Positions 15,477-39,444 of a stretch of 64,000 bases of DNA are shown in pieces. The position numbers and the translations under genes are program-made. Where the stretch lies: the NCBI GenBank assembly GCA_015058145.1, contig SVCX01000003.1, forward strand, positions 1 through 64,000. The letters are read 5' to 3'. The first letter of the stretch is position 1. Each line of letters starts with the position of its first letter. Below the pieces are notes generated by a model that had not been told where the DNA came from, ran no database searches, and saw only the letters and a program-made list of their open reading frames with translations. The stretch is from Clostridiales bacterium (GTDB lineage: Bacteria > Bacillota > Clostridia > Peptostreptococcales > Anaerovoracaceae).

Positions 15477-18400
15477 TTACTTTCTGATCTTATCTCTGTA
15501 GTTGAGATACTGGTCTTCCTGACTGCCCTTCCAGCGTACGCCTTCCTCGCCGAGTTCACCGAATTCGATGTCGTCCGGCAGGGTTGGCTGCATTGGATTC
15601 GCCTTAATCTGGGCGACTGCATCATACAGCTCAGAGCCGAGGAAGTATTTCTCAGGCTTGTTCGGATTCGGTTCTCCCTTAGCCTTTGCTTCAATACCGG
15701 CCTTGACCTTATCAGGTGTAGCAGGAATCTCGTAGATTCTGACGCCGACAGCGTTGTTGATCGCGTTGATGACTGCCATGTGGTCGGCTGACTGGAACGC
15801 CTCGGAAGCTCCGGAGGAACCGAACGGACCACGTGGATCTTCGCCGTCGGTGTGGATGTAGTTGAAGTCTGGATAGTCAGGAATGTCGTTGGCATAGAGG
15901 ATACCAGCCTTGACCATGTTCCAATCCTTTTCAACATCTTCGTAGTTCTCAGTGAGAGCGAAGCCGATTGCGTGTGACATACCGCCGTAGATCTGGCCTT
16001 CGACTGCCTGAATGTTACCAGGCTTACCGATCCACTCGACGCAGGTCATGCCCGTGCACTTGGTTTTACCAGTTGCAACTTCTACATCTACGGTTGCCAG
16101 GAACAGAGCATAGGTGTAGGTGTAAGTCGGGTTACCGGAACCATCGTTTGGATCCAAATCGTAGAAGTAGTTATACTCATCTACAGTAGCCCAGTCGCCA
16201 GGATATCTTGTAGGAAGTCCTTCTGCAACCATTTCGTCATATGTTCTGTATGTTCCGTCTTCCTTTCTCATTGCGTCTGCGATGTTCTTCGCTGCAACGA
16301 TGGAAGCTTTACCATTGGCGTAGTGTGATCTGGAACCAGCAGACTCACCAGTGTTCGGACAATACTTGGAGTCGTCCTGAACGAGCTTGATGTCATCCGG
16401 AGTGATGTTCGGGAAGTAAGGCTTCAGCGCTTCCAGCGTACAGATGAGTGAACCCTGGTCGCCGCCCTGGCCCTGATCCTGCCAAGTGTCGTACTTTCTG
16501 AATGTGCCGTCCGGCATCAGTTCGAGAGCAACGTGTGCTTCGTCGATGCCGCCCAGTCCTACGTTGTAGCCGCCCCATGCGACACCGACGCCCTTCTTGA
16601 CGTCTTCATGATCCTTGTTCCAAGCTTCGACTTCCGCCTTTTTCTCGTTATAGATAGGCCTCAGTTTATCCATCATCTCTTCCATTGGATAGTGGAGATA
16701 TGGAAGCTGGTTGATGTTTGTTTCTTCCGGCGTTCTCGCGATGTTGATGTATCTGAATTCGAATGGATCGATGCCGGCTTTTTCTGCCAGCATGTCGACG
16801 ATCGCTTCTGAACCGGTGTAAGCCTGTGGTGCGCCGTAGCCTCTGTAAGCAGTTGTCCAGAGATGGTTGGTAACAGCCGATCTGTTCATGCCGACTACAT
16901 TTGGAACGTAGTATGGATAGAACATGAAGCGGGAAGTCTTGGTCAGTTTGTCATCGGTAAATTCGCCGAAGCAACCGGCATCCAGACCGATGTCATATTC
17001 ACCGGCAACGAATCTGCCGTTTTCATCACAGGCAAGGCGTGCATTACAATATGAAGGTGAACGCTTACCCGTAACAGCCATGAACTGCTTGTAATCCATA
17101 GACAGTGAGCAAGGCATCTTCGTTAACATTGTAGCGTATGCGCAAAGTGTCCAGTTGTGCGCATTCATCGCCCATCCGAAGCTTCCGCCTGTCGGGTTCT
17201 CGATGAGACGGATGTCGTTTTCGGAATCGAGACCCAGCGCGTTGGCCATTTCGTCCTTATCCCAGTAGAGGGTCATGCACTTGCAGTGCACGCAGAGCTT
17301 GTTGTCTTCGTCGTAGTAAGTCTGAGCAACATCGCCCTCGATGGACATGTGCGGCTCTCTGGAGGAGTAGAAGGATCCTTCTACGGAGAACGCTGCATTC
17401 TCAATCAGTTCCGGAACATGCTCGTCATCGCCCTTCAGAACCGGCAGGTGGCAGTAGGTGTTCGGCGCATAGGTGTCCGGCATCCAGTCGTAGATCTGGC
17501 TGGCACCCGGAGCAACAGATTCCAGGAAGTTCATGTGCGCTTCCAGTTCCTCGATCTCTACCTTGACATACGGTACTGCTGCCTTTGCGTGATCTCTGGT
17601 GTCTGCCACGACCAACGCAACGACGTCACCGTACCATTTGATCTCGTCTTCCGCGAGAATGTGGTGATGCTCCTGCAGTTCTACTGTTCTTTCGGAGAAG
17701 CCGAACGCCATGAAATAGTTCTTGCAACCAATCTCTTTGACATCCTTGGCTGTGATGACCTTGACTACGCCAGGCATCTTCTCAGCTTCGCTGTAGTCGA
17801 TGCTTTTGATCTTGGCGTGGTGTGTGATTCTCGGCATCACCATTTCGACCTTCAGGGTCTCAGCCGGCATGTGCAGTTCAACGTCATCGCCGTAGTCGCA
17901 GACGCCGCATGCCTTCGGCAGAGCGTTCGGTCTTTCGAGCGGCTTGCCGTAGAAGTTACCGATATCCTTTGTCCAGTCATATCTCAATTCTTCAACAGTC
18001 TTTTCGCCTCTCAGGACCTGTGCAGCAGCCATGACGGCGTCAACAATCTGCTTGTAACCAGTACATCTGCAGACGTTTCTGTGCTTGGTGAACCAGTCTC
18101 TGACATCTTCTCTCGTAGGATTTGGATTTTCCTGCAGGAGCTGATAGGCAGATACAATGAATCCAGGTACGCAGTAGCCGCACTGTACGGCGCCGCATGC
18201 GACCCACATGGACTGAAGTGGATGAGGATAGTTGACGCTGCCGATACCCTCGATGGTGGTTACCTCGCTGTACTCTTCGACCTTGGCGATCTTTCTTGTG
18301 CAGGAGCGGATGACTTTGCCGTTCAAGATGACAGAGCAGGCTCCGCAGACGCCGTAGCCACAGCCGATCTTCGTGCCGGTCAGGCCGAGACGGCGCAGTA

Positions 18401-18485
18401 CGTCAGCAAGGGTGTCCTTCTCGGGATCGCAAATGAACATTCTGTCTGCACCATTAATGTGCAGAGTCATTTTCTTTAAATTCAT
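15477..18485 (-). CDS. Molybdopterin aldehyde oxidoreductase/xanthine dehydrogenase-family enzyme, second paralogue
   Basis: CGYGVCGACSV; CGYCVPGF; CRCTGY; FGSSGASEAF; colinear with the 10868 gene and starts MNLKKMTLHINGADRMFICDP. Confidence 0.9.
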   Translation of the reverse strand: MNLKKMTLHINGADRMFICDPEKDTLADVLRRLGLTGTKIGCGYGVCGACSVILNGKVIRSCTRKIAKVEEYSEVTTIEGIGSVNYPHPLQSMWVACGAVQCGYCVPGFIVSAYQLLQENPNPTREDVRDWFTKHRNVCRCTGYKQIVDAVMAAAQVLRGEKTVEELRYDWTKDIGNFYGKPLERPNALPKACGVCDYGDDVELHMPAETLKVEMVMPRITHHAKIKSIDYSEAEKMPGVVKVITAKDVKEIGCKNYFMAFGFSERTVELQEHHHILAEDEIKWYGDVVALVVADTRDHAKAAVPYVKVEIEELEAHMNFLESVAPGASQIYDWMPDTYAPNTYCHLPVLKGDDEHVPELIENAAFSVEGSFYSSREPHMSIEGDVAQTYYDEDNKLCVHCKCMTLYWDKDEMANALGLDSENDIRLIENPTGGSFGWAMNAHNWTLCAYATMLTKMPCSLSMDYKQFMAVTGKRSPSYCNARLACDENGRFVAGEYDIGLDAGCFGEFTDDKLTKTSRFMFYPYYVPNVVGMNRSAVTNHLWTTAYRGYGAPQAYTGSEAIVDMLAEKAGIDPFEFRYINIARTPEETNINQLPYLHYPMEEMMDKLRPIYNEKKAEVEAWNKDHEDVKKGVGVAWGGYNVGLGGIDEAHVALELMPDGTFRKYDTWQDQGQGGDQGSLICTLEALKPYFPNITPDDIKLVQDDSKYCPNTGESAGSRSHYANGKASIVAAKNIADAMRKEDGTYRTYDEMVAEGLPTRYPGDWATVDEYNYFYDLDPNDGSGNPTYTYTYALFLATVDVEVATGKTKCTGMTCVEWIGKPGNIQAVEGQIYGGMSHAIGFALTENYEDVEKDWNMVKAGILYANDIPDYPDFNYIHTDGEDPRGPFGSSGASEAFQSADHMAVINAINNAVGVRIYEIPATPDKVKAGIEAKAKGEPNPNKPEKYFLGSELYDAVAQIKANPMQPTLPDDIEFGELGEEGVRWKGSQEDQYLNYRDKIRK

Positions 18486-18702: not shown

Positions 18703-18811
18703 CTATCGAGACTGGTTGTGGATCTGTCTGCGCACTTTTTTATCAAAGACAAGCAAGCAATATGAATTTAAAGTTTAGACGTGTCTAAAGAATATTAAAT
18801 TCGTGTAACTT

Positions 18812-18873
18812 CAATAAAAAAGTGCGCAGGCAAATCAATCAAACCAGATATGGTATGAATGACTCCTTCGCAC
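18812..18873 (-). terminator. Terminator at the 3' side of leader element A
   Basis: Minus strand GTGCGAAGG ... CCTGCGCAC followed by TTTTTTATT. Confidence 0.7.
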
Positions 18874-18947
18874 AATGGCAGGCTGCCGGATCACTCCTGC
18901 AACCCTATCGCCCAAGCTGACAAACGGGTGCCGGCAAGGGTCGGAGT
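18862..18947 (-). ncRNA. Candidate structured leader RNA (element A), unassigned riboswitch-like
   Basis: ACTCCGACCC...GCAGGAGTGATCCGGCAGCCTGCCATTGTGCGAAGGAG; related to element B; promoter-like TTGACA-N18-TAAAAT just upstream on minus strand; followed by terminator. Confidence 0.6.
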
Positions 18948-18967
18948 GTATTCTTTTTCCTGCTCCA

Positions 18968-18997
18968 ATTTTAACTGTATGTAAGCGGGTTTGTCAA
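18968..18997 (-). promoter_or_regulatory. Sigma-70-type promoter for element A leader
   Basis: Minus strand TTGACA (18997-18992), 18-nt spacer, TAAAAT (18973-18968). Confidence 0.55.
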
Positions 18998-19066: not shown

Positions 19067-19095
19067 TTGAAGCAAAACGTCCAAAAATATATAAT
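19067..19095 (+). promoter_or_regulatory. Sigma-70-type promoter upstream of the Moco-type riboswitch
   Basis: TTGAAG, 17-nt spacer, TATAAT. Confidence 0.6.
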
Positions 19096-19120
19096 ATAGG
19101 CACAGGCAAGCAATTGAATA

Positions 19121-19225
19121 ACGCCTTTCGAGCTGGGACGCCTAAGGGTCCTTCGAGGATCTATGGCCAGCAGACGACAGGGTTTGGCGGGAAACCGCCT
19201 GGCCTCCCGTGTTTGGAAAGAAATG
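19121..19225 (+). ncRNA. Moco/Tuco-type riboswitch
   Basis: CTTTCGAGC...GGACGCCTAAGGGTCC...GGCCAGCAGACGACAGGGTTTGGCGGGAAACCGCCTGGCCTCCCGTGTTTGGAAAG; the CCTCCCGTnTnTGGAAAG block matches the E. coli moaA leader as I recall it. Confidence 0.8.
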
Positions 19226-19254
19226 GCTGAGTGACGTATTATTATTGTTCACTG

Positions 19255-19287
19255 GTCGATTTCTTATGGAATCGACTTTTGTATTTT
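19255..19287 (+). terminator. Intrinsic terminator downstream of the Moco-type riboswitch (expression platform)
   Basis: GTCGATTTC-TTAT-GGAATCGAC followed by TTTTGTATTTTT. Confidence 0.75.
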
Positions 19288-19336
19288 TATGGTGTACTCA
19301 TATTGAGAGCCATTATGAAGAAACGGGAGGTAAAAA

Positions 19337-20866
19337 ATGAGCAGCAATATGAAAAAATGGCTATCGCTTTTAACACCCCTTGCGGTAGCTTTTATTTTGT
19401 GTCTTGGCGCAATGGGGGTCTTCACCGAGAAGGCATTTGCAGATTCGGGAGATTTAACTGTGATTTGCCCTGTAGATGGAAATAACGTACAGGTTAACTT
19501 CTATTATGAAAAGAATGAGGGTGAACCGGTCGGACATCTTTATTATATGAACGGCGATACGAAGGTCGTCATTAAAAACACGCAGAATGCTGTGACCTAT
19601 TCAGCAATCAAAAACACTGCTTCTCCGAGTGATGAAACTGATGCAATTGGACCTGAAGTTGAGGCCTTGCTCAAGGCAACCGGCTTTGTGCCTGCGGAAA
19701 ACACCAAATACCTGGTGACTGTGAAAAGCAACGATGGAAAGAATTCGACCTTTACATGGGATGAATTGTTTAAGACGGAACGATATACTTTTCCAAATGC
19801 AAAGATGCCGAAAGATCCGGAGGAAGATGGATTTGCTGTAACGGAAGCCCAGAAGGAGGGTGCTGTGGCGGTTCCGGTAATCATTGACTTAGCCATATCA
19901 AAAGATAAGCCTGCCAATACATTCTGCTTCGGACAGGTTTCTCCTACCGAGAGAACCAGACCTGCCTTTGTTAAGAATGTTATTTCAACAAAGAATACTA
20001 CACCTAGTATCACAGTCGAAGCAGTAGAGAACTACGAGCAGATAAGTAATGAGTCTGATGCGGTTGTTAGTGTTCCTAACAACAGCACAATAGAAATCGG
20101 AACGGAGATACGTTTCGGAGGAGATGCGAAGACAAGTCCATATGAAACAGAGAACACGCCTCTGCATAATCTGTACTATACGACAGATGGTTCAGAGCCA
20201 ACGTTGGAATCAGGCTTGTATAACTGGTATTCTTATTATCAAGAAAGCGCGGAATTTTATTATAAGTACAACTCAATTGTCGCAGACAAATTAGGAACGC
20301 TGAAGATAAGAACAAAGGCTTACAGACATGGCTATCTGCCGAATGAAAAAACGTTCACCTATCATGTAGTGGCTGATTTTGCGAAAATCAAAGGGCAACT
20401 AACACTCGACAAAACAAAGGTTGTTGCCGGATCGAAACCGTCTGCTACGGTTAAAGCGGAGGGAAAGACGCTGAAGGCGAACACAGATTACACAGTTAAT
20501 TTTGGAAACTACAAGAAGGTTGGTACAGCAACAGTAGCAGTAACCGGTAAAGGAAACTATATAGGAAAACTGAGTAAGACTTATAAAGTCATCCCTGCAA
20601 AAGCAAAATTCAAATCTGTAAAGGCCGGCAAGAAAAAGGCGACCATTGTAATTGTAAGCCAGAAAGCATCCGGCGTCACAAAGTACCAGATTGCCTACAA
20701 ACTTAAAACTGCTAAGAAGTGGAAGACTACTACAACCACGTCCACTAAGAAGGTGATTAAAAAGCTCAAGAAAGGCAAGAAGTACAACTTTAAGGTCAGG
20801 GCTTACGGGAAAACCGGATACGGCGCGTACAGTGCTGTGAAGACAATCAAAATCAAGAAAAAGTAA
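19337..20866 (+). CDS. Exported protein with chitobiase C-terminal-like and fibronectin type III-like domains
   Basis: Signal peptide; LYYTTDGSEPTLESGLY; C-terminal Lys-rich FN3-like KYQIAYKLKTAKKWKT...YNFKVRAYGKTGYGAYS. Confidence 0.7.
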   Translation: MSSNMKKWLSLLTPLAVAFILCLGAMGVFTEKAFADSGDLTVICPVDGNNVQVNFYYEKNEGEPVGHLYYMNGDTKVVIKNTQNAVTYSAIKNTASPSDETDAIGPEVEALLKATGFVPAENTKYLVTVKSNDGKNSTFTWDELFKTERYTFPNAKMPKDPEEDGFAVTEAQKEGAVAVPVIIDLAISKDKPANTFCFGQVSPTERTRPAFVKNVISTKNTTPSITVEAVENYEQISNESDAVVSVPNNSTIEIGTEIRFGGDAKTSPYETENTPLHNLYYTTDGSEPTLESGLYNWYSYYQESAEFYYKYNSIVADKLGTLKIRTKAYRHGYLPNEKTFTYHVVADFAKIKGQLTLDKTKVVAGSKPSATVKAEGKTLKANTDYTVNFGNYKKVGTATVAVTGKGNYIGKLSKTYKVIPAKAKFKSVKAGKKKATIVIVSQKASGVTKYQIAYKLKTAKKWKTTTTTSTKKVIKKLKKGKKYNFKVRAYGKTGYGAYSAVKTIKIKKK

Positions 20867-20878
20867 TTAGAAGACTTA

Positions 20879-21913
20879 ATGAAGCAAAAGAACTACACAA
20901 GTTCATCAAAGAAACAAGGCCTGCTTAACACGGCCTTGTTTCTTATACTTTTGCTTCTTGTTTTGGCCTGCCTTTGCGTGGGCAAGTATTCGATCGCACC
21001 GGAAGAATGCATTAGGATCCTGTGGGGTAAACTCATCCATGCGCAGCCGTCCTGGGACGGCATGGATGAGAAGCTGCTGATAGGGATCCGGCTGCCGCGC
21101 ACGATGGCAACGGTCATCGTTGGAGCGGCGCTGGCGCTCTCCGGAGCGGTTTATCAGGGCATCTTCAAGAATCCTCTGGTGTCGCCGGATTTTCTCGGTG
21201 TTTCATCAGGAGCATGTGTGGGTGCAGCGATTGCGATTCTGCTGTCCCTGTCATCCGGTCTGATTCAGATTTTTGCATTCTTCGGCGGGATTCTGGCGGT
21301 CTCATTGACCGTGCTGATTCCGAAGGCGATGCGGAGTGAGTCGAATCTCATGCTGGTATTAGCGGGCATCATCATCGGCGGCGCGATGACCTCGGTGCTC
21401 GGTTTCATCAAATATATCGCCGATCCGGAGACGCAGCTCGCTGCCATTACATATTGGCAGTTGGGCAGTTTTGCTTATGTGGATAATCACGCTCTCTTAA
21501 GCGTGCTTCCGCTCAGCATCGCCGCCGCAGTCATTCTGCTGGCTATGTCCTGGTGGATCAATGTCCTGTCTCTTGGTGAGAAAGAGGCGCAGATGCTAGG
21601 CGCGAATGTTTCGGTATTACGAGGCGTATGCATTATTTGTTCAACGGTGCTGACGGCAGGGGCCGTCTGCATTTCAGGAACGATTGGATGGGTAGGTCTG
21701 GTTATACCGCACTTCGGAAGAATGATTATCGGTTCCGACAACAGGCACCTGCTGCCGGGATGCTGTTTCATCGGCGGAATCTTCATGCTGCTGGTGGATA
21801 CGGTTACCAGAGTAATCGGTCCGGCAGAGATGCCGGTCAGCATTCTGACGGGTCTGCTTGGAGCGCCGTTCTTCGCATGGCTGCTGTACCGGCAGCGGAT
21901 GAATATGAGGTGA
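20879..21913 (+). CDS. BtuC/FecCD-family ABC transporter permease
   Basis: Multi-TM; RLPRTMATVIVGAALALSGAVYQGIFKNPLVSPDFLGVSSGA; WVGLVIPHFGRMIIGSDNR. Confidence 0.9.
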   Translation: MKQKNYTSSSKKQGLLNTALFLILLLLVLACLCVGKYSIAPEECIRILWGKLIHAQPSWDGMDEKLLIGIRLPRTMATVIVGAALALSGAVYQGIFKNPLVSPDFLGVSSGACVGAAIAILLSLSSGLIQIFAFFGGILAVSLTVLIPKAMRSESNLMLVLAGIIIGGAMTSVLGFIKYIADPETQLAAITYWQLGSFAYVDNHALLSVLPLSIAAAVILLAMSWWINVLSLGEKEAQMLGANVSVLRGVCIICSTVLTAGAVCISGTIGWVGLVIPHFGRMIIGSDNRHLLPGCCFIGGIFMLLVDTVTRVIGPAEMPVSILTGLLGAPFFAWLLYRQRMNMR

Positions 21914-21917
21914 GAAT

Positions 21918-22715
21918 ATGGAAACGATTTACGATGTAAACAATCTGACATTCTCATATCGACAGGGTGACCGCAAGGTGCTTGACGGTGTTTCGCTGCA
22001 GTTGAACAGGGGCGATATTCTCTGCGTTCTCGGGCCGAACGGAGCGGGGAAGACGACGCTTCTCAATTGCATGGCTGGATTATTGAAACCTGATGCTGGA
22101 GAAATCATTCTGTGCGGCAAAGATCTCAAAAACATGAAAGCGAAGGAAATCGCAAGTCTCGCCGGTTATGTGCCGCAGATGCACACGCCGGCCTTCGACT
22201 ACACGGTGATGGATTTTGTGCTAATGGGCCGCGCCCCGAAGACGGGAACCTTCAGCAGACCGAAAAAAGAAGACGAAAGCCTTTGCATGGATATTCTCGG
22301 AAGCATGGGAATCGGCGGGCTCGCGTCAAAGTCTTATCTGGAAATCAGCGGAGGCGAGCGACAGCAAGTGCTTATTGCCCGCGCTATCGCGCAGCAGCCG
22401 GAGGTAATTCTGTTTGATGAACCTACGGCCCATCTGGATTACGGCAATCAGCATCGGGTGCTGAACCGGATCAAACAGATGGCAGGCGAAGGGTTTTCTG
22501 TAATCATCACGACCCACAACCCGGATCATGCGCTTCTGCTCGGAGACAAGGCGGCAATTGTCAGCAAAGACGGGCACATCAGACAGGGTAGTGTCGAGGA
22601 TATTATCGCCGCGGAGAGACTGCGGGAAGTCTATGATATCGATCTGCATCTTGAGTATGTGGAGGAGATTAATAGAGTGGCGTGTTTCGCGCCGGAATTG
22701 GACGATAGGAAATGA
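21918..22715 (+). CDS. ABC transporter ATPase, BtuD/FepC/MolC-like
   Basis: Walker A GPNGAGKTT; ISGGERQQVLIARAI; DEPTAHLD. Confidence 0.9.
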   Translation: METIYDVNNLTFSYRQGDRKVLDGVSLQLNRGDILCVLGPNGAGKTTLLNCMAGLLKPDAGEIILCGKDLKNMKAKEIASLAGYVPQMHTPAFDYTVMDFVLMGRAPKTGTFSRPKKEDESLCMDILGSMGIGGLASKSYLEISGGERQQVLIARAIAQQPEVILFDEPTAHLDYGNQHRVLNRIKQMAGEGFSVIITTHNPDHALLLGDKAAIVSKDGHIRQGSVEDIIAAERLREVYDIDLHLEYVEEINRVACFAPELDDRK

Positions 22716-23773
22716 GACGCAAAAGCATCACAAACAGAATAGCGTTAATGCTGGTGACTATCGTTGTGTTGTTTGCCATGACCGGCTGCGGCGGGGGGAA
22801 TCCTTCGGGCAACACGGAACCCGGTAAAATCCTGTCGCAGACAGAGGACGAAATCACCATTGTGGATCAGGCCGGACGGGAAGTTACCGTGCCGAAGAAG
22901 ATTGAAAGCATCGCGCTGTCTTACCGTGTTGCAATTCGTTTCCTGCTTAATCTCGATCAGGGGGACAAGATCAAAGGCATCGGCAAATCCGAACCGTTTC
23001 TGGAGGAACTGCAGCCGTCGCTGGCAGACTGCGTAAATGTGGGACAGGGAGTCGCTGATATCGAAGCGGTGGCGGAGCTCGATCCGGATGTATTCTTCCA
23101 CAAGGCAAGCGACACGGAGACACTTGACGCGCTGGACAAGATCGGGGTCCCTGCAGTGGGAATCGAAATTGAGACGCCGGAAGATATGATGACAGCGCTG
23201 GATCTGATGGGCAAAGTCTGCGGCGCGGAGGAAAAAGCTCAGACGCTGATCAACTACTACAATGAACAACTTGCAGAAATCGAGGAACTCACATCGGAGA
23301 TCAGTGAAAAAGATAAAAAGACGGCCATCGTCATGGGAACATCCATCGGCAAAGTGGCGGACGGATCCATGCTTCAGGGCGAGATGCTGAAGCGGGCAGG
23401 CGCAATCAACTGTGCGGATGGAATGCAGGCGACAGAACTTTGGCCGACTGCCGGAGCGGAGCAGATTTTCGAGTGGAATCCGGATTATATCTTCATCACC
23501 GGAAGCGAGAGCGCGGTATATGACGCGGAGGATATTCTGCAGGATAAGACGTGGTCGGAGATTACAGCGGTCAAAAGCGGAGATGTCTATGTGATGCCGG
23601 CGGAGAAAGATTCCTGGGAATTTCCCGGCTTGGTCAGCATTCTCGGAATCGACTATATGATACACACGATGTATCCGGAATTATTGAGCGACGAAGAGCT
23701 TGAAGATAAGGTAAACGAACTCTATGAGCTGTCTTACGGCAGGACTTTTGAAAGAGATGAACTCGGCTATTAA
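22712..23773 (+). CDS. Cluster-A substrate-binding lipoprotein (BtuF/FhuD/MolA fold)
   Basis: Lipobox AMTGCGGG; TVPKKIESIA; NPDYIFITG; ABC partner genes immediately upstream. Confidence 0.85.
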   Translation: MRRKSITNRIALMLVTIVVLFAMTGCGGGNPSGNTEPGKILSQTEDEITIVDQAGREVTVPKKIESIALSYRVAIRFLLNLDQGDKIKGIGKSEPFLEELQPSLADCVNVGQGVADIEAVAELDPDVFFHKASDTETLDALDKIGVPAVGIEIETPEDMMTALDLMGKVCGAEEKAQTLINYYNEQLAEIEELTSEISEKDKKTAIVMGTSIGKVADGSMLQGEMLKRAGAINCADGMQATELWPTAGAEQIFEWNPDYIFITGSESAVYDAEDILQDKTWSEITAVKSGDVYVMPAEKDSWEFPGLVSILGIDYMIHTMYPELLSDEELEDKVNELYELSYGRTFERDELGY

Positions 23774-25145
23774 AAACAATGGCAAGAGAATACTGGCTGT
23801 ATGCTGCGTGGTACTGATTGTCGTGCTGCAGGTTGTATTTGCTGTACCTTCAGATGCAGCAGGAAAAGCGGGCGAAGAACTGGAGATAAGAGTTCAGTAC
23901 GAAGGCGAGCGCGGCGGAAAAATCAGGACGTGGGCAGTGCTTTCTGATAGCGATTTGGAAAACCTCGGTGCGCATGAGCAGATTTATACGAACATCACAC
24001 GAGTAGGAACGCTGATGCGGTCAGCTGTTTTATGTATAGAACTTGAAACAATTATCGATGCCGCAGGGATTGATCCGGGTTCTGTCAAGTCGTTTACTTT
24101 TAGAACAGACGACGGATATACAATGACCTTTTATGGTGACGACTATTTAATGTCACCGGGTTGGTATTATCCTAATTTGGCAGCACATTCCTACAGAGTC
24201 GATAATGCACGTGATGGCGCGCTGCAGATGGAAGCGGGGGCACTTGATGATGGTGTTCGCAACGCATATGCAGTTATAGCCTTAAAATCATTCAGCACGA
24301 AGTATAACTCTGACGAAGTATCCTTCGACGACATGACAAAAGAGAACGCCTACCGGTTTTTCCGTGGCCAAACGGATCTTTCATATCTGCGGTATGAAGA
24401 TGAGGAAGGAAATGAAATGTTTATGCCGTCTAAAATGCAGGATATAACAGCAGCCAGCACCATCAAGTACATCTATGGCATTGATCTGGTCCTTAAAGGT
24501 GCGCCGCCTCTTGATGGAATCAGCCTGAATGTTATCGGCGATTCAAAGAAGGTGGGAAGCCAGGTGCAGATTCAGGTCACGTTCGAGGGCGACACGTTTG
24601 GTCTTTTCAGCAGTAGTGATGTGACTTGGTCCAGCAGCGATGAATCCGTCGCAACGGTAGACAAGAATGGCGTTGTGACCATCTTAAAAGAAGGGGAGGT
24701 CACGATCACAGCAGAGGCAGGCGGTAAAACAGCCTCCGTGGTTCTTGGTTCTCCGACCAGCGAAAAGGATAATCCAGAGAACAAAGACACCACAGATAAA
24801 GTAAAGGCAACAAAGTCCACAAACACGAAAACAACCAAAGAGAAAGCAGAGAAAAAGCAGAACAACAACGTAAACCAAAAAACAGAACAGAAAGACAGTA
24901 AGAAAAAAGTGATTACAGCCAGAGAAATCAGCATCGGCAAGGAGATCGTACCGGAGCCGGAAGAGGCAGCTGCTGCTGTCAGCGTGAAAACCGATACACA
25001 GGCCCTCGAAGCGGTGGAGGAATACAATCCGAAGGTGGTCGGCGGTTCAGCAGCCGCGGCGGTGCTGGCCTGCAGCGGCGGAGCGGTCTTCCGGGTGCGC
25101 AGGTTCCGGGCAGACATGGGTACGAATATCAAGAGCAAGCATTAA
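23757..25145 (+). CDS. Exported membrane-anchored protein with BIG2 domain
   Basis: Signal peptide; VTWSSSDESVATVDKNGVVTILKEGEVTITAEAGGKTASV; C-terminal TM plus basic tail; overlaps upstream SBP gene. Confidence 0.7.
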   Translation: MNSAIKNNGKRILAVCCVVLIVVLQVVFAVPSDAAGKAGEELEIRVQYEGERGGKIRTWAVLSDSDLENLGAHEQIYTNITRVGTLMRSAVLCIELETIIDAAGIDPGSVKSFTFRTDDGYTMTFYGDDYLMSPGWYYPNLAAHSYRVDNARDGALQMEAGALDDGVRNAYAVIALKSFSTKYNSDEVSFDDMTKENAYRFFRGQTDLSYLRYEDEEGNEMFMPSKMQDITAASTIKYIYGIDLVLKGAPPLDGISLNVIGDSKKVGSQVQIQVTFEGDTFGLFSSSDVTWSSSDESVATVDKNGVVTILKEGEVTITAEAGGKTASVVLGSPTSEKDNPENKDTTDKVKATKSTNTKTTKEKAEKKQNNNVNQKTEQKDSKKKVITAREISIGKEIVPEPEEAAAAVSVKTDTQALEAVEEYNPKVVGGSAAAAVLACSGGAVFRVRRFRADMGTNIKSKH

Positions 25146-25185
25146 CATATAACAGGCGGAATAAGGTAAGCTAATACAGGCGGAG

Positions 25186-25914
25186 GTGTTAGAGTTGATA
25201 TCAGAAGCGGTAAAAGATATATTGAGAGCGATCAGCAGCGGGCTGCAGATTCCGACGATCATCATCCTGATTATTTTGATCCTTACGATGGTCGTCATCA
25301 TGGGCAGCTTCATTGCGGAATACTTTTCGGAACGAAAAGCGTTGTCTGTTAACATCACAGGATTGGTGGATGAGCTGCAGGGCAAAGACTCAAAAGAGAT
25401 GATTTCCATCATCAATCAGAGCAACCTTCTGAAACGCCAGAAGCAGGCGGCGATAGAACTGCTGAAGCGGATCAATTATTCGGACAATACCAGGGAAGCG
25501 CTGGCAAGGCAGATGTTGTCTGATGAGGAGAACGTATTCGCGCGCCGGACGAAGGTCACGGACATCATCGCCAGAGTCGCGCCGATGTTCGGGCTCATGG
25601 GAACCCTGATTCCGCTCGGCCCGGGCCTGATCGCGCTGGCGCAGGGTGACACGAAGACCTTATCAGATTCCTTGCTGGTGGCCTTTGACACCACCGTTGC
25701 CGGACTGGTGAGCGCAGCTGTCGCCTATGTGATCTCGGGCATCCGCAAGGGATGGTACGAGAAATACATGGTCGGTTTGGAGACGATCATGGAAAGCATT
25801 CTGGAAGAGCAGACGAAGGAGCGCGCAAAGGCAATTCAGAAGCTCAAGCAGCAGAAGATGAGTCAGCAGGAACGCAGCGAAATGCTTTACGGTCCGAAGA
25901 AGGAACAGTCGTAA
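25186..25914 (+). CDS. MotA/TolQ/ExbB-family proton channel
   Basis: RVAPMFGLMGTLIPLGPGLIALAQGDTKTLSDSLLVAFDTTVAGLVSAAVAYVIS. Confidence 0.85.
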   Translation: MLELISEAVKDILRAISSGLQIPTIIILIILILTMVVIMGSFIAEYFSERKALSVNITGLVDELQGKDSKEMISIINQSNLLKRQKQAAIELLKRINYSDNTREALARQMLSDEENVFARRTKVTDIIARVAPMFGLMGTLIPLGPGLIALAQGDTKTLSDSLLVAFDTTVAGLVSAAVAYVISGIRKGWYEKYMVGLETIMESILEEQTKERAKAIQKLKQQKMSQQERSEMLYGPKKEQS

Positions 25915-25926
25915 GGGAGGCGCGCT

Positions 25927-26241
25927 ATGAGAATTAACAGAAACAGAGGGCGCCTGAGGGTCGCGCACAAGCAGGACAGTTTCAATCCCATGGAAGGCGT
26001 CGGGAACATGGCGGACGCCATGTTGGTCTTCGCCTGCGGCCTGATCATCGCGCTGATTCTGAGCTGGAACGTGGATGTGACAGATCAGGGGATTCAGAAG
26101 ATCAAAGAGAAGAAGTACGAGGTCGACAGCATCAGCAATGAGACGACTGAAACGATTGACGAGAATCAGAATCTGGAAGAGATGGGAAAAGTGTACCGGG
26201 ATCCGGAAACGGGGAAGTATTATGTTATCGAAGATAAATAG
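25927..26241 (+). CDS. DUF2149-like single-TM partner of the ExbB-like channel
   Basis: NPMEGVGNMADAMLVFACGLIIALILSWNV; GKVYRDPETGKYYVIE. Confidence 0.7.
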   Translation: MRINRNRGRLRVAHKQDSFNPMEGVGNMADAMLVFACGLIIALILSWNVDVTDQGIQKIKEKKYEVDSISNETTETIDENQNLEEMGKVYRDPETGKYYVIEDK

Positions 26242-26716
26242 AGTCTGGATTGCCTTTGCATTGGCTGTTGCTATTATATGTCTATGCGGCTGTGCGCCGG
26301 ACGATATAGATATCAGCGGATACGCCGACCAGCAGATTGCCATCGATGGAATCGATGAAGATACGGTGTTTGTCAGTATTGCAGATATGAAGGCACTGGA
26401 TTGTGTGACCATTAAGACGGAGAGCACCAGCGACAAGATCGGCAAGGTCAGAGCGACCGGTCCAACATTGGAAACAGTTTTGGCAGCAAAGGGTGCGGAT
26501 ATCAAGGATATAAAGAAGATTACATTCCATGGCGCCGATGACTACGAATACTCACTGAAAGAGGATTATATTGCCGAACACGATATCATTCTGGCGTTCG
26601 GAATCGACAAAGAACCACTCGACGAAGAGGATGCCCCGTGCAGGATTATCATTCCGGAATCGGATTCTGCTTACTGGCTCAGAATGCTGGATCATATTAA
26701 CATTGAGATGAAATAA
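26222..26716 (+). CDS. Lipoprotein with molybdopterin-oxidoreductase (SUOX-like) fold
   Basis: MLSKINRVWIAFALAVAIICLCGCAPD lipobox; SIADMKALDCVTIKTE...KKITFHGADDYEYSL. Confidence 0.65.
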   Translation: MLSKINRVWIAFALAVAIICLCGCAPDDIDISGYADQQIAIDGIDEDTVFVSIADMKALDCVTIKTESTSDKIGKVRATGPTLETVLAAKGADIKDIKKITFHGADDYEYSLKEDYIAEHDIILAFGIDKEPLDEEDAPCRIIIPESDSAYWLRMLDHINIEMK

Positions 26717-26725
26717 GAATAGCAG

Positions 26726-28021
26726 ATGGAAACGACAATCAATACAAACAACAAAGCATCAAACTGGAACTACATCATACTTGGCAGCGGTATTGCGGGA
26801 ATGGCGGCTGCTGAGGCCATAAAGGAGCGAGATAAAGAAGCCGGAATTCTCATGATTTCTGCTGAACAGGAATTCTGCTTTAACCGTCCGATGCTCATCA
26901 ATGAATTCGCTTTGGATGGATCGGGATCGGTTCTGTTCGACCGTCAGCAGAGCTGGGCTGAGCAGACCGGCGTTGAAGCTAGAATGGGGACAGGAATCAA
27001 GGCCATCGATTTGCATGCGAAAACTGTTTCGCTGTCCGACGGCTCCGTTTGTGGATACGGCAAGCTCATCTATGCTCTCGGCGCCAGAGTTTTTATTCCA
27101 AAAATTCCGGGCGCGGACAGGGACAACGTGTTCACGATTCGGACGAGAGATGATATGCGGCGGATTCGTGCGGCGATGGAAGGCGCGGAGACTGCTGTCG
27201 TCATCGGTGGCGGAATGCTTGGACTCGAAGATGCATGGGGGCTTTGCGAAGAGAAAATCAAGGTGACAATTCTTGAGAAGGGAAGTCGTCTTGCGGCCGG
27301 GCAGATCGATAATTCAGCCGGCAATCTAATGAAGAAGCGCATTGAGCGCACAGGCACAAAGGTTTATACGAATGCAGACGTATTGCAGATAGACGACGGA
27401 TCGGTTGAATTCACGAGTGAAGGACAGACGTTAACGGTGCCTGCAGATTTAGTCATCATCTCAGCAGGTGTAATCCCTAACAGCGAAATCGGAAAGGCAG
27501 CAGGCCTTGCGGGAACAGGCGAAGGTGAGCAGTGGATTCGTGTTGATGGCGGTATGCGAACCAGTGATCTGTTTGTCTTTGCGGCGGGAGACGCAGCTGC
27601 GCTCAATGGAAGAAATGATGCAATCTGGGATGAGGCCAGACAGATGGGAACCGTTGCAGGAACGAACGCGGCGGGAGGCAACGCGGAATACACTCCTGTC
27701 GTTCCGGAGCATGTTTTCAACGGGTTTGATACAGAGGTATTTACACTGGCTGACAGCTCCGGCGCGGGGACAGACGGCGTGTACATCAGACATGCGGATG
27801 TGGAGATTTTTGATTACCAGAGAGAACGGTATATCAGGGTTTCTCTGCAGGACGGCGTCATAGCGGGAGTTCTGTTGATAAACGCGCCGGAACTCGTACC
27901 TGAGTTGATGGAGGCGTACAGAAATGGAGAGGGTGAAGAGGAGGCTCGGCAGATCATTCAGCGCTGGAAAGAAAGTCATGATGTGAACTTCAAACCGGCT
28001 GCTCCGTTCACAAAACGATAG
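26726..28021 (+). CDS. FAD/NAD-dependent oxidoreductase (NADH:rubredoxin/AorC-like)
   Basis: GSGIAGMAAAEAIKERD; second Rossmann VVIGGGMLGLEDAWGL; DLFVFAAGDAA. Confidence 0.85.
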   Translation: METTINTNNKASNWNYIILGSGIAGMAAAEAIKERDKEAGILMISAEQEFCFNRPMLINEFALDGSGSVLFDRQQSWAEQTGVEARMGTGIKAIDLHAKTVSLSDGSVCGYGKLIYALGARVFIPKIPGADRDNVFTIRTRDDMRRIRAAMEGAETAVVIGGGMLGLEDAWGLCEEKIKVTILEKGSRLAAGQIDNSAGNLMKKRIERTGTKVYTNADVLQIDDGSVEFTSEGQTLTVPADLVIISAGVIPNSEIGKAAGLAGTGEGEQWIRVDGGMRTSDLFVFAAGDAAALNGRNDAIWDEARQMGTVAGTNAAGGNAEYTPVVPEHVFNGFDTEVFTLADSSGAGTDGVYIRHADVEIFDYQRERYIRVSLQDGVIAGVLLINAPELVPELMEAYRNGEGEEEARQIIQRWKESHDVNFKPAAPFTKR

Positions 28022-28030
28022 AAAAAATCT

Positions 28031-28059
28031 TTGCCAATAAAGTGATATTACTTTATAAT
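28031..28059 (+). promoter_or_regulatory. Sigma-70-type promoter for element B leader
   Basis: TTGCCA, 17-nt spacer, TATAAT. Confidence 0.7.
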
Positions 28060-28071
28060 ATAACCATAAAG

Positions 28072-28159
28072 ACTCCGACTCTTTCTCGACACGCGCGGCG
28101 TGCCGGTCAGAGCGCCAGGTATCGGGAGTGATTCCGGTGCCCGCCATTGTGCAAAGGAG
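28072..28159 (+). ncRNA. Candidate structured leader RNA (element B), unassigned riboswitch-like
   Basis: ACTCCGACTC...TCGGGAGTGATTCCGGTGCCCGCCATTGTGCAAAGGAG; related to element A; begins shortly after predicted TSS. Confidence 0.65.
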
Positions 28160-28190
28160 ACCGCTTGGTTTGCCTTTGCTTTTTTATTTT
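28151..28190 (+). terminator. Intrinsic terminator at the 3' side of element B
   Basis: GCAAAGG ... CCTTTGC followed by TTTTTTATTTT. Confidence 0.8.
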
Positions 28191-28242: not shown

Positions 28243-28638
28243 ATGGCAACAAAGCGTTTGAAGTTCAACAAGGCACTTTGCATCGGGTGCCAGCTGTGTT
28301 CTCAGGTCTGTTCTGCTTACAAGGAGGGAGAGTACAATCCTTCCAAGGCAAGACTGGCTATAGAGACATACTATGATGACGGATCGCTGAAGTACAAGGA
28401 TGACTTCTGCATTCTGTGCGGCATGTGCATGAAAGCATGCCCGTTTGACGCCATCGATATGGACAAAGGGTGGATTACAGTAGATCCTGACAAATGCAAA
28501 GGCTGCGGCCTCTGCGCGAAGAAGTGTCCGAAGAAGGTCGTCAGGATTCGCGATAAAATGGCGTATATCTGCGACACCTGCGAGGGCGATCCAAACTGTG
28601 TCAAGGCTTGTCCGCACGGCGCCCTGACGTTTGAATAG
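28243..28638 (+). CDS. Multi-[4Fe-4S] ferredoxin-like electron-transfer subunit (AorA-like)
   Basis: CIGCQLCSQVC; CILCGMCMKACP; CKGCGLCAKKCP; CDTCEGDPNCVKACP. Confidence 0.9.
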   Translation: MATKRLKFNKALCIGCQLCSQVCSAYKEGEYNPSKARLAIETYYDDGSLKYKDDFCILCGMCMKACPFDAIDMDKGWITVDPDKCKGCGLCAKKCPKKVVRIRDKMAYICDTCEGDPNCVKACPHGALTFE

Positions 28639-28653: not shown

Positions 28654-30477
28654 ATGAAAGCGAGAATATTAGAAGAAAAATATAGTGCGCAGGCAGCTGA
28701 CCCGAATCAGAATGTCATGCAGGCGTATCAAAACAAAGTTCTGAGAATCAATCTTAATGAAGAAGATGCCACAATCGAACCTCTCCGCATGGATTTCGCA
28801 GAAAAGTATGTCGGCTCCAAGGGGCTGGCAATCCGCTACATGTATGAGGATATGAAACCGGGCATCGATCCATTGGGACCGGAAAACAATCTGTACTTTA
28901 CAACTGGACCGATGACGGCCACACCGATTCCATGCTCTGGCAAACTGTCCGTAGCAGCGAAGTCGCCGGCGACGGGAACTATGAATGACTGCTCCATCGG
29001 CGGCCACATCGGCATCCGCCTGAAGTTCGCAGGATACGACATGGCAGTATTTGAAGGCCAGAGTGAGAAGCCGGTTTACGTTGTGATTGAAAATGACGAA
29101 ATCACGTTCCACGATGCATCCGAACTGTGGGGAATGACCTCCCACGCAGCTGAGAAGAAACTTATAGATGAATATGGAACAGAGTACAGCTGCCTTTCCA
29201 TCGGACCTGCTGGTGAAAACCTGAACTTCATCTCCTGCATCAACTGCGACTACTACAGACAGGCAGGAAGAGGCGGTATCGGTGCTGTCATGGGAAGCAA
29301 GAAGGTCAAGGCAATCCTCGTGAAGGGAACGCTGGGCGTCAAGCTCCCGAACATCAAGGAAGCGACAGACAGGATTCTGGAGATCATGCATGAGAACGCT
29401 CTCTCCGAAGACAATGAATATGTATTCGATGAAGGAACCTATGCATTCCTGGAAGCTTGTAACGACGGTGGTATTCTTCCGGCTCACAACTTCAGTGCGG
29501 CGACTGACGTGAAATGGGATCAGTACAACGGCGCAGTCATGAAGAAATATCGTCTGGGCAAGCGTGGATGCGGAAGCTGCGCACTGGGCTGCGGCAACTT
29601 CATGCAGGTCGGCGATGCGATTGTTGAAGGTCCAGAGTACGAAACGACAGCGGCTTCCGGTCCGCAGTGCGACATCGCTAGCATTGAGCATAACGTAAGA
29701 TACAATCAGCTGGTCGATGATCTGGGTATGGATTCCATCAGTACCGGCGTAACAATTGCCTGGGCCATGGAAATGGCGGAGAAGGGCATCCATGATTTCG
29801 GCGTACACTTTGGAAATGAAGAAGAGATGCTGAAACTCATCGAAGACATGGCGTATCGCAGAGGAGCCGGCGCAGAGCTGGCGGACGGCGTTAAGGTCGC
29901 GTCAGAGAAGTGGGGCGGCACAGACTTCGCAATGCACTCCAAGGGACTGGAGTTCCCGCAGTATGAACCGCGCGGAAGCTTCGGCATGGCTGCATCCTAT
30001 GCAGTATCCGACAGAGGCGCCTGCCACATGAGGTCCTACACGGCAAACGAGGAAGTATTTGAGGCATCCTGTCCACCGTATACACATGAAGGCAAGGGCG
30101 AGGTGCTCTATAATCTGGGCGAGTGGAACGCAATCAAGTTCTCCTGCTGTCTTTGCGACTTGTGGGGAACGGCTGACTACGCGGTTATGTCCGAGCTGCT
30201 GACGCTGATCACAGGCAAAGAGTGGACCGAAGAGGACATGAGCACAGTCGGACGCAGGGTCCTCAACATCGGACGTGCGTTCAACCAGCGTGAAGGATTC
30301 ACCAGAGAGCATGACGTTGTTCCGCAGAGACTGTTCAAGGATAAGCTCAAGGGCGGTCCGGCAGACGGTCAGGTCATGACAGAGGAAGGATTCCAGGATA
30401 TGCTGGATCAGTATTTCGAAATCATGGGCTGGGACAAGAACGGTTGCCTGCCTCAGGAACTGATCGATACGCTGTAA
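28654..30477 (+). CDS. aor: Aldehyde:ferredoxin oxidoreductase (AOR family, tungsten)
   Basis: KGLAIRYMYE; YFTTGPMTATPIPCSGKLSVAAKSPATGTMNDCSIGGHIG; CGSCALGCGNFM; CCLCDLWG. Confidence 0.9.
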   Translation: MKARILEEKYSAQAADPNQNVMQAYQNKVLRINLNEEDATIEPLRMDFAEKYVGSKGLAIRYMYEDMKPGIDPLGPENNLYFTTGPMTATPIPCSGKLSVAAKSPATGTMNDCSIGGHIGIRLKFAGYDMAVFEGQSEKPVYVVIENDEITFHDASELWGMTSHAAEKKLIDEYGTEYSCLSIGPAGENLNFISCINCDYYRQAGRGGIGAVMGSKKVKAILVKGTLGVKLPNIKEATDRILEIMHENALSEDNEYVFDEGTYAFLEACNDGGILPAHNFSAATDVKWDQYNGAVMKKYRLGKRGCGSCALGCGNFMQVGDAIVEGPEYETTAASGPQCDIASIEHNVRYNQLVDDLGMDSISTGVTIAWAMEMAEKGIHDFGVHFGNEEEMLKLIEDMAYRRGAGAELADGVKVASEKWGGTDFAMHSKGLEFPQYEPRGSFGMAASYAVSDRGACHMRSYTANEEVFEASCPPYTHEGKGEVLYNLGEWNAIKFSCCLCDLWGTADYAVMSELLTLITGKEWTEEDMSTVGRRVLNIGRAFNQREGFTREHDVVPQRLFKDKLKGGPADGQVMTEEGFQDMLDQYFEIMGWDKNGCLPQELIDTL

Positions 30478-30550: not shown

Positions 30551-30790
30551 ATGAAAGTAACAGTCGCGCTGAGAGGAACGCTGAAGAAATTGTTCGGCGG
30601 TCCGACAGAAAAAATCGTGGAGATTCCGGAAGGCAGCACCTGTGAGGACGCACTTCTGGCGGCAGGAATTGATTACAAGAATACCCATAATTTCGGATTC
30701 GTTTCCGTTAACGGAATGCGGGTCATGATTTATGATGAAGTGAAGGAAGGCGATTACATCAAGGCCTTTAGCAGAGTCACAGGAGGTTGA
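30551..30790 (+). CDS. MoaD-like ubiquitin-fold sulfur carrier (AOR-linked)
   Basis: 79 aa; KVTVALRGTLKKLFGG...C-terminal FSRVTGG. Confidence 0.85.
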   Translation: MKVTVALRGTLKKLFGGPTEKIVEIPEGSTCEDALLAAGIDYKNTHNFGFVSVNGMRVMIYDEVKEGDYIKAFSRVTGG

Positions 30791-30793
30791 GAT

Positions 30794-30961
30794 ATGTCAG
30801 CGAAAGATAAGAACGAATACGAAGTAACCATGACTTTTGACGGGGAAGAAGTGGGAATGATGCCTTTCGTAGAAGGCATGGTTCGCGATGTGGTTTTAGG
30901 CCTTGCAGAAAACCTCAAGGGTTACGAGGAAGGCATGGAAATCGTCATCAGAATCAAGTAG
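30794..30961 (+). CDS. Small 55-aa protein absent from the supplied ORF track
   Basis: RBS aggaggttgag; MSAKDKNEYEVTMTFDGEEVGMMPFVEGMVRDVVLGLAENLKGYEEGMEIVIRIK*. Confidence 0.7.
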   Translation: MSAKDKNEYEVTMTFDGEEVGMMPFVEGMVRDVVLGLAENLKGYEEGMEIVIRIK

Positions 30962-30974
30962 GCTGAAGACTACC

Positions 30975-31490
30975 ATGAAAGTAATCAATATACAGGGCAG
31001 AAAAAAGACCGGCAAGACGACGACGGCCGTGAACATAATATCGGAGCTGTGCCGCAGAGGATATTCCGTTGGTTCCATTAAAGGAATTCACATCGAAGGG
31101 TTCACGATGGACCAGGGTGGAGACACTAGAAAACACAAGGCGGCAGGCGCAGATCCTGTCGCAGCCCGCAGTCATGATGAGACGAACATCATGTTCTCGG
31201 GCAGTATGGACCTTCGGGATATTCTGAAGCATTTCAGCAATGACTGGGTCATCATAGAGAGCCATGTCGACTTGAAGTGTCCGAATATTATCACTGGCAA
31301 AACAGCATCTTATGACGGACAGGGAAAAGATGAAAGCCTTGAAGAACAGGTGAACCCCTTGACTATCTGCTGCAGCGGCGTCATTGCGAACGAACTCACA
31401 GAGTTCCAGGGAATACCGGTAATCAACTCACAGACAGAGATTGCACGTCTGGTTGATTTGATAGAAGAAAAAACGGACGATTATGAGTGA
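30975..31490 (+). CDS. mobB: Molybdopterin-guanine dinucleotide biosynthesis MobB-like GTPase
   Basis: MKVINIQGRKKTGKTTTAVNIISELCRRGYSVGSIKGIHIEGF; P-loop. Confidence 0.85.
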   Translation: MKVINIQGRKKTGKTTTAVNIISELCRRGYSVGSIKGIHIEGFTMDQGGDTRKHKAAGADPVAARSHDETNIMFSGSMDLRDILKHFSNDWVIIESHVDLKCPNIITGKTASYDGQGKDESLEEQVNPLTICCSGVIANELTEFQGIPVINSQTEIARLVDLIEEKTDDYE

Positions 31491-34012: not shown

Positions 34013-34055
34013 TTTTGCTGTATAATTGTGCTACCATGAATGCGGAGGAGCACAT

Positions 34056-34718
34056 ATGCAGTATCTGGAAAGCATAATAGAGAGTGGACTGTTCAGCGAA
34101 CTTAAGAAATCAGATTACATGGACGCTTTCGAACAGCTCAAGGTTTCCGGCAGGAATTATCAGCCGGGGGAAACCATTTTTTTCGAAGGAGATCTCATCG
34201 ATAAATTCTGTATCGTCAGGGAAGGCAGCGTAAGGAGTGAGAAAACTTATCTGAACGGAGAGGTCCATATTGTCGATATGTTTGATGAAGGATCTGTATT
34301 CGGTCTTGCGGTTGCTGCATCCAGAAGCCGTGTCACAGCCATAGACTACATCAGCAACGAGGTGTCCACGGTTGTTTTCGTTTCCATGCATTCCATTCAG
34401 AAGAACAGATTTTCCAAAGAACTGCAGAAAGCGCTGACCTTCATGCTTGCTGACAGCAACATCAAGATGAGAAATAAGATAGAGATTCTGGCGGAAAAGG
34501 GGCTCAGAGACAGAGTGATGATGTATCTGCACGTCCTGCAGGCAAAATCCGGAACGGATACTGTTACCGTCAGAATGAGCAGAGAGCAGTTAGCCCAGTT
34601 CCTGTGCGTCAACAGGTCCGCGCTGTCAAATGAACTCAGCAAGATGAAAAAAGAGGGCATAATTGATTTCAAAGGACCGACGTTCAAAATCTTGAAAAAG
34701 AAATTAATGTTGTCATAA
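34056..34718 (+). CDS. Crp/Fnr-family transcriptional regulator
   Basis: cNMP-like N-domain; HTH SREQLAQFLCVNRSALSNELSKMKKEGII; RBS gcggaggag. Confidence 0.9.
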   Translation: MQYLESIIESGLFSELKKSDYMDAFEQLKVSGRNYQPGETIFFEGDLIDKFCIVREGSVRSEKTYLNGEVHIVDMFDEGSVFGLAVAASRSRVTAIDYISNEVSTVVFVSMHSIQKNRFSKELQKALTFMLADSNIKMRNKIEILAEKGLRDRVMMYLHVLQAKSGTDTVTVRMSREQLAQFLCVNRSALSNELSKMKKEGIIDFKGPTFKILKKKLMLS

Positions 34719-37880: not shown

Positions 37881-38729
37881 ATGAAGAAAACATTATTGGC
37901 ATTGTTCACTTGTCTGGCAATGATCTTCGCGTTCACTGCTTGCGGAAGCAGCGAAGAAGAAGCTGCCACAGAAGAGAGCACGGAGGTTATTGTTTTTGCT
38001 GCTGCCAGCATGCAGTCATCCCTTGAGGAACTGGAAGCAAGCTTTGAAGCAGAGAACCCTGGCGTTGACGTAGTACTCAACTGCGACAGCTCCGGTACGC
38101 TGCAGGAACAGATTATGGAAGGCGCTCCTTGCGACATCTTCTTCAGCGCAGCTCAGAAGAACATGGACGCGCTGGAAGAAGAGGGACTCGTAGTGGAAGG
38201 AACCCGCTCCAACGTTCTGAACAATCAGCTGGTCGTCATCACGCAGCCTGACAGCGAGACAAAAGTAACGGGTATTGAGAACCTGGGCGACGCGGAGAGC
38301 ATCGCACTGGCAGACGGCAGCGTGCCGGTAGGTAAGTACACCCGCAGGGCGCTGATGAATCTGGGCGTTCTCCCTGAAGTAGAGGATCCTGCTGTTTACA
38401 CAACACAGGAAGTTTCCGACGCGCTGGGCGGCGTTGAAATCAGCGAACAGGGCAACGTAAGCAAGGTTCTGTCAGCAGTGCAGGAAGGATCCAGTGAAGT
38501 CGGAACCGTTTATCTTTCTGATACATATGGACAGGAAGACAGCGTGAAGATTCTGCAGACTGTTTCCTACGATGTTGCCGGCGATATCATCTATCCGATC
38601 GCGCAGATTGTAAACCAGGACGCGGATGATGCTGAGAACGAAGCTGCTGCAGCAGTTCTCGAATACCTGACCAATGACAATGCGAAGGCAGTCTATAAGA
38701 CACATCTCTTCGACATCGATGTAGAATAA
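37881..38729 (+). CDS. modA: Molybdate/tungstate-binding lipoprotein ModA
   Basis: Lipobox FAFTACGSS; VFAAASMQSSLEELEASFEAENPGVDVVLNCDSSGTLQEQI. Confidence 0.9.
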   Translation: MKKTLLALFTCLAMIFAFTACGSSEEEAATEESTEVIVFAAASMQSSLEELEASFEAENPGVDVVLNCDSSGTLQEQIMEGAPCDIFFSAAQKNMDALEEEGLVVEGTRSNVLNNQLVVITQPDSETKVTGIENLGDAESIALADGSVPVGKYTRRALMNLGVLPEVEDPAVYTTQEVSDALGGVEISEQGNVSKVLSAVQEGSSEVGTVYLSDTYGQEDSVKILQTVSYDVAGDIIYPIAQIVNQDADDAENEAAAAVLEYLTNDNAKAVYKTHLFDIDVE

Positions 38730-38745
38730 ACGAGGACGTTATACT

Positions 38746-39441: not shown

Positions 39442-39444
39442 AGT

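Follow-up and report, generated by a model that had tools for sequence, protein, structure and literature searches.

Moco RNAs are divided by their P3 stem, and the form that lacks P3 has been proposed to sense the tungsten cofactor (Tuco; Regulski 2008, PMC2408646). Tungsten-metabolism genes occur in 17 of the 19 organisms with a P3-less RNA (Regulski 2008, PMC2408646), and in the same 2008 work deletion of P3 in E. coli left specificity unchanged (PMC2408646). Four of the 176 Moco RNAs described there carry a GCAA tetraloop and have no receptor for it (PMC2408646). The discrimination of tungsten from molybdenum by these riboswitches has been an open question since 2008, with P3 as the sole proposed marker.

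Protein systems that resemble parts of the locus described here are also known. Nearly every class I-IV WOR is said to occur together with TupABC (PMC13328260), and a replacement importer is therefore expected where TupABC is absent. In the class II molybdate importer MolBC-A, the binding protein MolA binds both molybdate and tungstate (PMC4031551). PruR is an exported pterin binder with a SUOX fold that lacks the Mo cysteine (PMC13259868), which makes it a precedent for non-enzymatic use of this fold.

The window analysed here, a stretch of 64,000 nucleotides, carries three Moco-type RNAs with mutually exclusive structures, and the genes beside them co-occur across genomes. Probably, a P3-less OFF switch controls an operon for tungsten import and surface proteins, and two variant ON switches control an XDH-like enzyme and a ferredoxin-AOR unit; in this account the ligand, the direction of switching and the transported substrate are inferred.

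The first of these RNAs, at 19114-19239 of the forward strand, matches RF01055 over the full length of the model (60.6 bits, E 4.5e-12; cut-off 36 bits). RF01055 is the only Rfam family above its cut-off when the whole 64 kb is scanned, and this is its only match in the 1.5 Mb genome, a MAG that is about 80% complete. A sequence-only reading had called a Moco/Tuco riboswitch here from conserved blocks that are found in the sequence as stated, and the covariance score bears out that call; the riboswitch is there, opening about 7 nt before the start at 19121 that was assigned to it. No residues align to the P3 columns of RF01055, and the P2-P4 linker, AGACGAC, leaves no room for a hairpin. This makes it a P3-less aptamer, a point that had been missed. 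Both the GAAA tetraloop on P4 (GGGAAACC) and its receptor in P2 (CCTAAG...TATGG) are present, and a tungsten-metabolism gene lies nearby, as for the P3-lacking (Tuco) form, in this case the AOR at 28654-30477.

As a family member this aptamer is ordinary; its setting is more interesting than had been stated. In the order to which this genome belongs, XDH-type and moa/moe genes are likewise found behind main-type P3-less RNAs. For this reason the main type has no settled metal specificity, and the absence of P3 was dropped as proof of tungsten sensing. The equation of P3-less with tungsten is not clean, which counts against the favoured reading. Aptamers with P3 (L044 and L046, from G107 and G031) head a related FecBCD importer, so both P3-plus and P3-less forms control such a transporter.

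A promoter-like sequence, TTGAAG-N17-TATAAT (19067-19095, +; 10/12 in a consensus scan only), precedes the aptamer. The 177-nt leader folds with -60.4 kcal/mol (z = -3.1), and 0 of 200 shuffled sequences are as stable. Downstream, the hairpin and T-rich tail of the earlier reading prove real. The hairpin, GGTCGATTTC-TTAT-GGAATCGACT, forms 10 pairs at 19254-19277 and is followed by the T-rich tail TTTGTATTTT, so that the intrinsic terminator with its T tract occupies 19254-19287 (+). Two terminator-like sites are found around the main switch, where 0.6 are expected.

The alternative structure at 19218-19265 (+) is an antiterminator with arms at 19218-19234 and 19249-19265 (-13.5 kcal/mol, ViennaRNA), in which the terminator's 5' arm pairs over its full length with the 3' strand of P1 (AAGAAAUGGCU..., from 19218). 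A transcript that has reached 19266, just before the 3' arm of the terminator, has this antiterminator in its minimum free energy structure. Once that arm is transcribed, ViennaRNA prefers P1 plus the terminator. For 68 main-type loci from the order, pairing of the P1 3' strand is stronger with its own terminator 5' arm than with swapped arms (-7.7 against -6.7 kcal/mol, sd 0.26, 0 of 200), and the pairing is kept within the genus despite different sequences (L038, L175, L034). Because formation of P1 excludes the antiterminator, the element at 19114-19290 most likely acts as a transcriptional OFF switch. The separate terminator supports this direction and is by itself no proof of it.

Nine collinear genes (19337-28021, +) lie downstream of the main switch. 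The first, as had been read, encodes an exported FN3/chitobiase-like protein, here with a SUOX-like N-terminal domain, CHB_HEX_C and FN3 (19337-20866; Pfam, hhalign). Transport genes come next: a FecCD permease (20879-21913; PF01032, E 9e-84), an ABC ATPase (21918-22715; PF00005) and a Peripla_BP_2 lipoprotein (22712-23773; PF01497, E 1.7e-27). They are followed by a second exported protein with a SUOX-like domain and Big_2 (23724-25145; Pfam, profile comparison), a MotA/TolQ/ExbB family member (25186-25914; PF01618), DUF2149 (25927-26241; PF09919), an Oxidored_molyb (SUOX-like) lipoprotein (26222-26716; PF00174, 4.9e-11) and, last before the next promoter, an NAD/FAD oxidoreductase (26726-28021; PF07992).

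Profile comparison weakly suggests that a SUOX-like domain is common to the FN3, Big_2 and Oxidored_molyb proteins. The hhalign probabilities are 98, 93 and 90%, where the FN3 protein (19337-20866) reaches 98% to the Big_2 protein and 90% to the Oxidored_molyb set. The profile of that set matches sulfite oxidases and the small entries of pterin-binding type 7kom and 7kp2. For the 26222-26716 protein the profile match spans only part of the domain, and a Cys at the candidate Mo-ligating site is kept in three orthologs and absent in other relatives.

The permease (PF01032) and binding protein (PF01497) fit the class II architecture of MolBC-A-like importers. The best solved relative of the binding protein (22712-23773) is the iron-complex protein 4hn9 (phmmer 2.5e-33); Haemophilus MolA/HI_1472 (3psa) also matches, at 2e-17, and is not the best match. 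This ranking speaks against the favoured reading. So does the ExbB/DUF2149 pair, which is not pathway-specific. A role specific to Mo/W was ruled out for it, as DUF2149 is present in 40 of 199 genomes of the family and two relatives lie behind cobalamin riboswitches; judged by this distribution, the pair is a general partner. In those two cases (L261 and L262, two genomes of the same family), the cobalamin riboswitch precedes an ExbB/DUF2149 unit.

The sequence-only reading placed the riboswitch before a transport/surface operon rather than cofactor-synthesis genes. The first part stands and the contrast is misleading, since transport is the commonest context of the main type in the order (37 of 60 assignable cases). 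Main-type switches there head transport or surface-transport genes (37), XDH (17), cofactor synthesis (4) and AOR (2), with 22 further cases unassigned and 7 with no gene in the stretch. Published descriptions of Moco RNAs already list transporters (PMC2408646, PMC9971707). The reading had also assigned Crp-like sites to the cofactor-synthesis genes. Matches to TGTGA-N6-TCACA with up to 2 mismatches number 27 where 30.5 are expected by chance, and this contrast was dropped. A gene for a Crp/FNR-family regulator (34026-34718) directly precedes moeA/moaA.

Other main-type loci show additional transport arrangements. In other Clostridia (L185, L188, L190, L196, L198, L199 and L090), the switch heads SUOX-domain lipoproteins and an ECF-type importer (PF09819, CbiO, CbiQ), and several of these loci add a phosphodiesterase/nucleotide pyrophosphatase. 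Salvage of a cofactor or pterin is a possible function for them. In two families, a protein of 238-292 aa with no Pfam match and a CIDDTDDL-type motif (L195, gene 4; L035, 13216-14094) adjoins a second FecBCD module under main-type switches.

The other two RNAs in the window are divergent aptamers with a P5 G-C pair and a GTGA tetraloop, and the current Rfam model misses both. One is recognisable in the 222-nt gap ahead of the ferredoxin-AOR genes (28062-28169, +), where RF01055 gives no match up to E 10. The other precedes the XDH-like gene (18853-18957, -), 157 bp from the main switch on the opposite strand, and scores 32.5 bits with RF01055, under the cut-off of 36. The model R1, built from 11 aligned AOR-heading relatives in other genomes with the window excluded, gives them 68.3 and 66.3 bits, respectively, compared to only 35.6 bits for the main switch at 19114. 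In support of the structure, 15 pairs in that alignment change on both sides, and the covariation score is 0.40; shuffling lowers it to 0.19 and sliding to 0.15 or less. G403 and G406, genomes of the same genus, carry these three switches in an identical order. The earlier reading missed both divergent switches and, probably, tungsten as the transported metal.

Each of the three switch units has a promoter-like site of its own by consensus. For the ferredoxin-AOR unit this is TTGCCA-N17-TATAAT (28031-28059, +; 11/12, consensus only), and for the XDH-like unit TTGACA-N18-TAAAAT (18968-18997, -; 11/12, consensus scan). The ferredoxin-AOR unit encodes a polyferredoxin (28243-28638, +) and a tungsten-type aldehyde ferredoxin oxidoreductase (AOR/WOR; 28654-30477, +; PF01314 7.8e-108, PF02730 2e-75); genes for a MoaD/ThiS-like protein (30551-30790, +; a weak NCBIfam match below the cut-off) and MobB (30903-31490, +; PF03205) follow. 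The XDH-like unit encodes a xanthine dehydrogenase-family (XDH) enzyme with 2Fe-2S and MoCoBD domains (15477-18485, -; Pfam).

In both variant copies the 5' arm of the terminator lies inside the aptamer, which is an ON layout. Ahead of ferredoxin-AOR the terminator is GCAAAGGAGACC-gctt-GGTTTgCCTTTGC plus TTTTTT (28151-28189, +), and its 5' arm is the 3' strand of the aptamer's P5/P1. In the XDH-like unit (18813-18873, -) the 5' arm is GTGCGAAGG. The leader of that gene also contains an inverted repeat (18721-18748 and 18809-18836; 28 nt, 86%), in which the 3' arm of the terminator and its U tract appear again, complementary, 60 nt further on. This repeat seems to be kept in G403 (L175).

Variants of this kind form a subclass across genomes. 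By their outer P5 pair, the 126 distinct switches of the order divide into 71 with C-G, 18 with U-A and 36 with G-C, and a further one is truncated at a contig end. None of the G-C members has a GAAA tetraloop (GCGA, GTGA, GTAA, GCAA and GAGA occur instead), compared to 86 of the 89 others. Of these variants, 27 precede AOR, 3 XDH and 1 a surface gene, and 6 have no gene in the stretch. L170 (G400) is an exception to the AOR/XDH rule, a G-C variant that heads large surface proteins. The aptamer's own P5/P1 3' strand doubles as the terminator 5' arm in 30 of the 32 G-C members scored, compared to 2 of 72 main-type switches of the order (Fisher p 2e-21, overstated since the sequences are related). 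Because of this overlap the G-C members are predicted to be ON switches, and the layout implies the same direction for the subclass as a whole.

The contrast also holds in a second set of switches, drawn from other families of the phylum. There, AOR is headed by 10 of 12 variants and 0 of 15 main-type switches, and overlapping terminators accompany 10 of 11 variants and 1 of 15 main-type switches. By an exact-pattern scan of named genomes, Levilinea (Chloroflexota), Tepidimicrobium and others carry the variant ahead of AOR, and Halanaerobium carries it ahead of a ferredoxin. The literature searched yielded no account of the changed P5 pair, the connection to AOR or the ON layout.

Comparison of 15 genomes of the window's genus, which includes Candidatus Allocopromorpha excrementigallinarum (one named genome), points to the transported metal. 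With orthologous FecCD defined by at least 70% identity, the 9 genomes that have AOR comprise 5 with FecCD only, 3 with TupA only and 1 with both; none of the 6 genomes without AOR has either (Fisher about 2e-4, with counts that are not independent because the MAGs are related). The window genome, about 80% complete, yields no TupA ortholog at E 1e-20. In three genomes (G127, G384 and G408), a main-type switch next to AOR heads TupABC, and the pairing of main-type switch with FecBCD module recurs in the genus with diverged leaders (L034, L038, L173 and L175). Since every AOR genome has one importer or the other and AOR-less genomes have neither, the window importer most likely replaces TupABC. 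Its substrate, judged from these gene comparisons, is most likely tungsten, as tungstate or a tungsten complex. Such an importer would fill a gap in species that have tungsten enzymes and no TupABC.

A different cargo is unlikely. The operon could import a metal bound to pterin, or the W/Mo-pterin cofactor as a whole, in which case the cofactor would repress its own salvage and the exported SUOX-like proteins would be cofactor or pterin receptors that feed a BtuCDF-like importer. The shared domain of the three exported proteins (hhalign 98/93/90%), its profile matches to sulfite oxidases and 7kom/7kp2, the example of PruR (PMC13259868), the transport of cofactors such as B12 by class II importers, and the SUOX lipoprotein, nucleotide-pyrophosphatase/phosphodiesterase and ECF-type importer loci of other Clostridia are all consistent with this. 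However, Moco and Tuco are unstable outside proteins (PMC2408646), the PruR pocket is thought too small for Moco, and the exchange with TupABC points to metal. The presence of moaA, moeA and mobB also means that salvage is not needed. Less likely still is a complete surface salvage system for pterin-bound W/Mo cofactor, with SUOX-like capture, class II import, shut-off by the P3-less switch and an AOR-dedicated variant that turns on the enzymes.

Lower again in probability is an importer for molybdate, or one that does not discriminate Mo from W, under a main switch that senses Moco. The XDH-type and moa/moe operons behind P3-less main-type RNAs would suit such a system, as would the binding of both oxyanions by MolA (PMC4031551), but modABC is already encoded at 37881-40491, away from the main switch and outside its control, and the presence of the importer follows that of AOR, a tungsten enzyme, in alternation with the tungstate-specific TupABC. 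That an adhesion/surface system or one for another nutrient (iron, corrinoid) has merely fallen under a Moco-type switch is very improbable: the iron-complex relatives of the binding protein and the cobalamin riboswitches before ExbB/DUF2149 relatives hint at it, but the pairing of switch and module recurs in the genus with diverged leaders, and the module tracks AOR.

Under the favoured reading, of tungsten import, the main switch in the absence of ligand would pair the P1 3' strand with the terminator 5' arm, and polymerase would read into the surface/transport operon. The FecBCD-type importer, the exported proteins with SUOX-like domains and ExbB/DUF2149 would then import tungsten in place of TupABC. 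When cofactor is sufficient, the aptamer would close P1, the terminator would form and uptake would stop. The XDH-like (-) and ferredoxin-AOR (+) units, from their own promoters, would use the variant aptamer as an ON switch, in which bound ligand holds the strand that otherwise forms the terminator. Given this opposite wiring, one signal would lower uptake and raise enzyme production. A natural AOR-linked subclass that differs in defined ways in P5, in the P4 loop and in the P2 receptor, and has the opposite expression platform, offers a direct handle on the W/Mo question, and this genome, with three differently wired Moco-type RNAs in 9.3 kb, is well suited to testing it.

Compared to known RNAs, the aptamer at 19114 shares P1, P2, P4, P5, the GAAA tetraloop and its receptor with the P3-lacking (Tuco/Wco) form of RF01055, as well as the absence of P3, a downstream terminator and transport genes. 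That form has ModABC or TupABC downstream, whereas here FecBCD and SUOX-like surface proteins with ExbB/DUF2149 follow. The two extra switches resemble the GCAA receptor-less RNAs of Regulski in having a non-GAAA loop and an altered receptor; their subclass adds the P5 G-C pair, mostly heads AOR and has a terminator that overlaps the aptamer. Among transporters, TupABC takes the equivalent place under the switch beside AOR in sister species, although its binding protein (PF12849) is unrelated to that of the window importer (PF01497). MolBC-A of Haemophilus influenzae is likewise a class II FecCD/Peripla_BP_2 system, with a sequence match through MolA. The window operon adds exported SUOX-like proteins, ExbB/DUF2149 and riboswitch control, and its substrate is a prediction. 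In PruR, too, the SUOX-like domain is exported and has no proven Mo site; PruR signals to DcpA, whereas the SUOX-like domain of the window is found in large surface proteins beside an importer.
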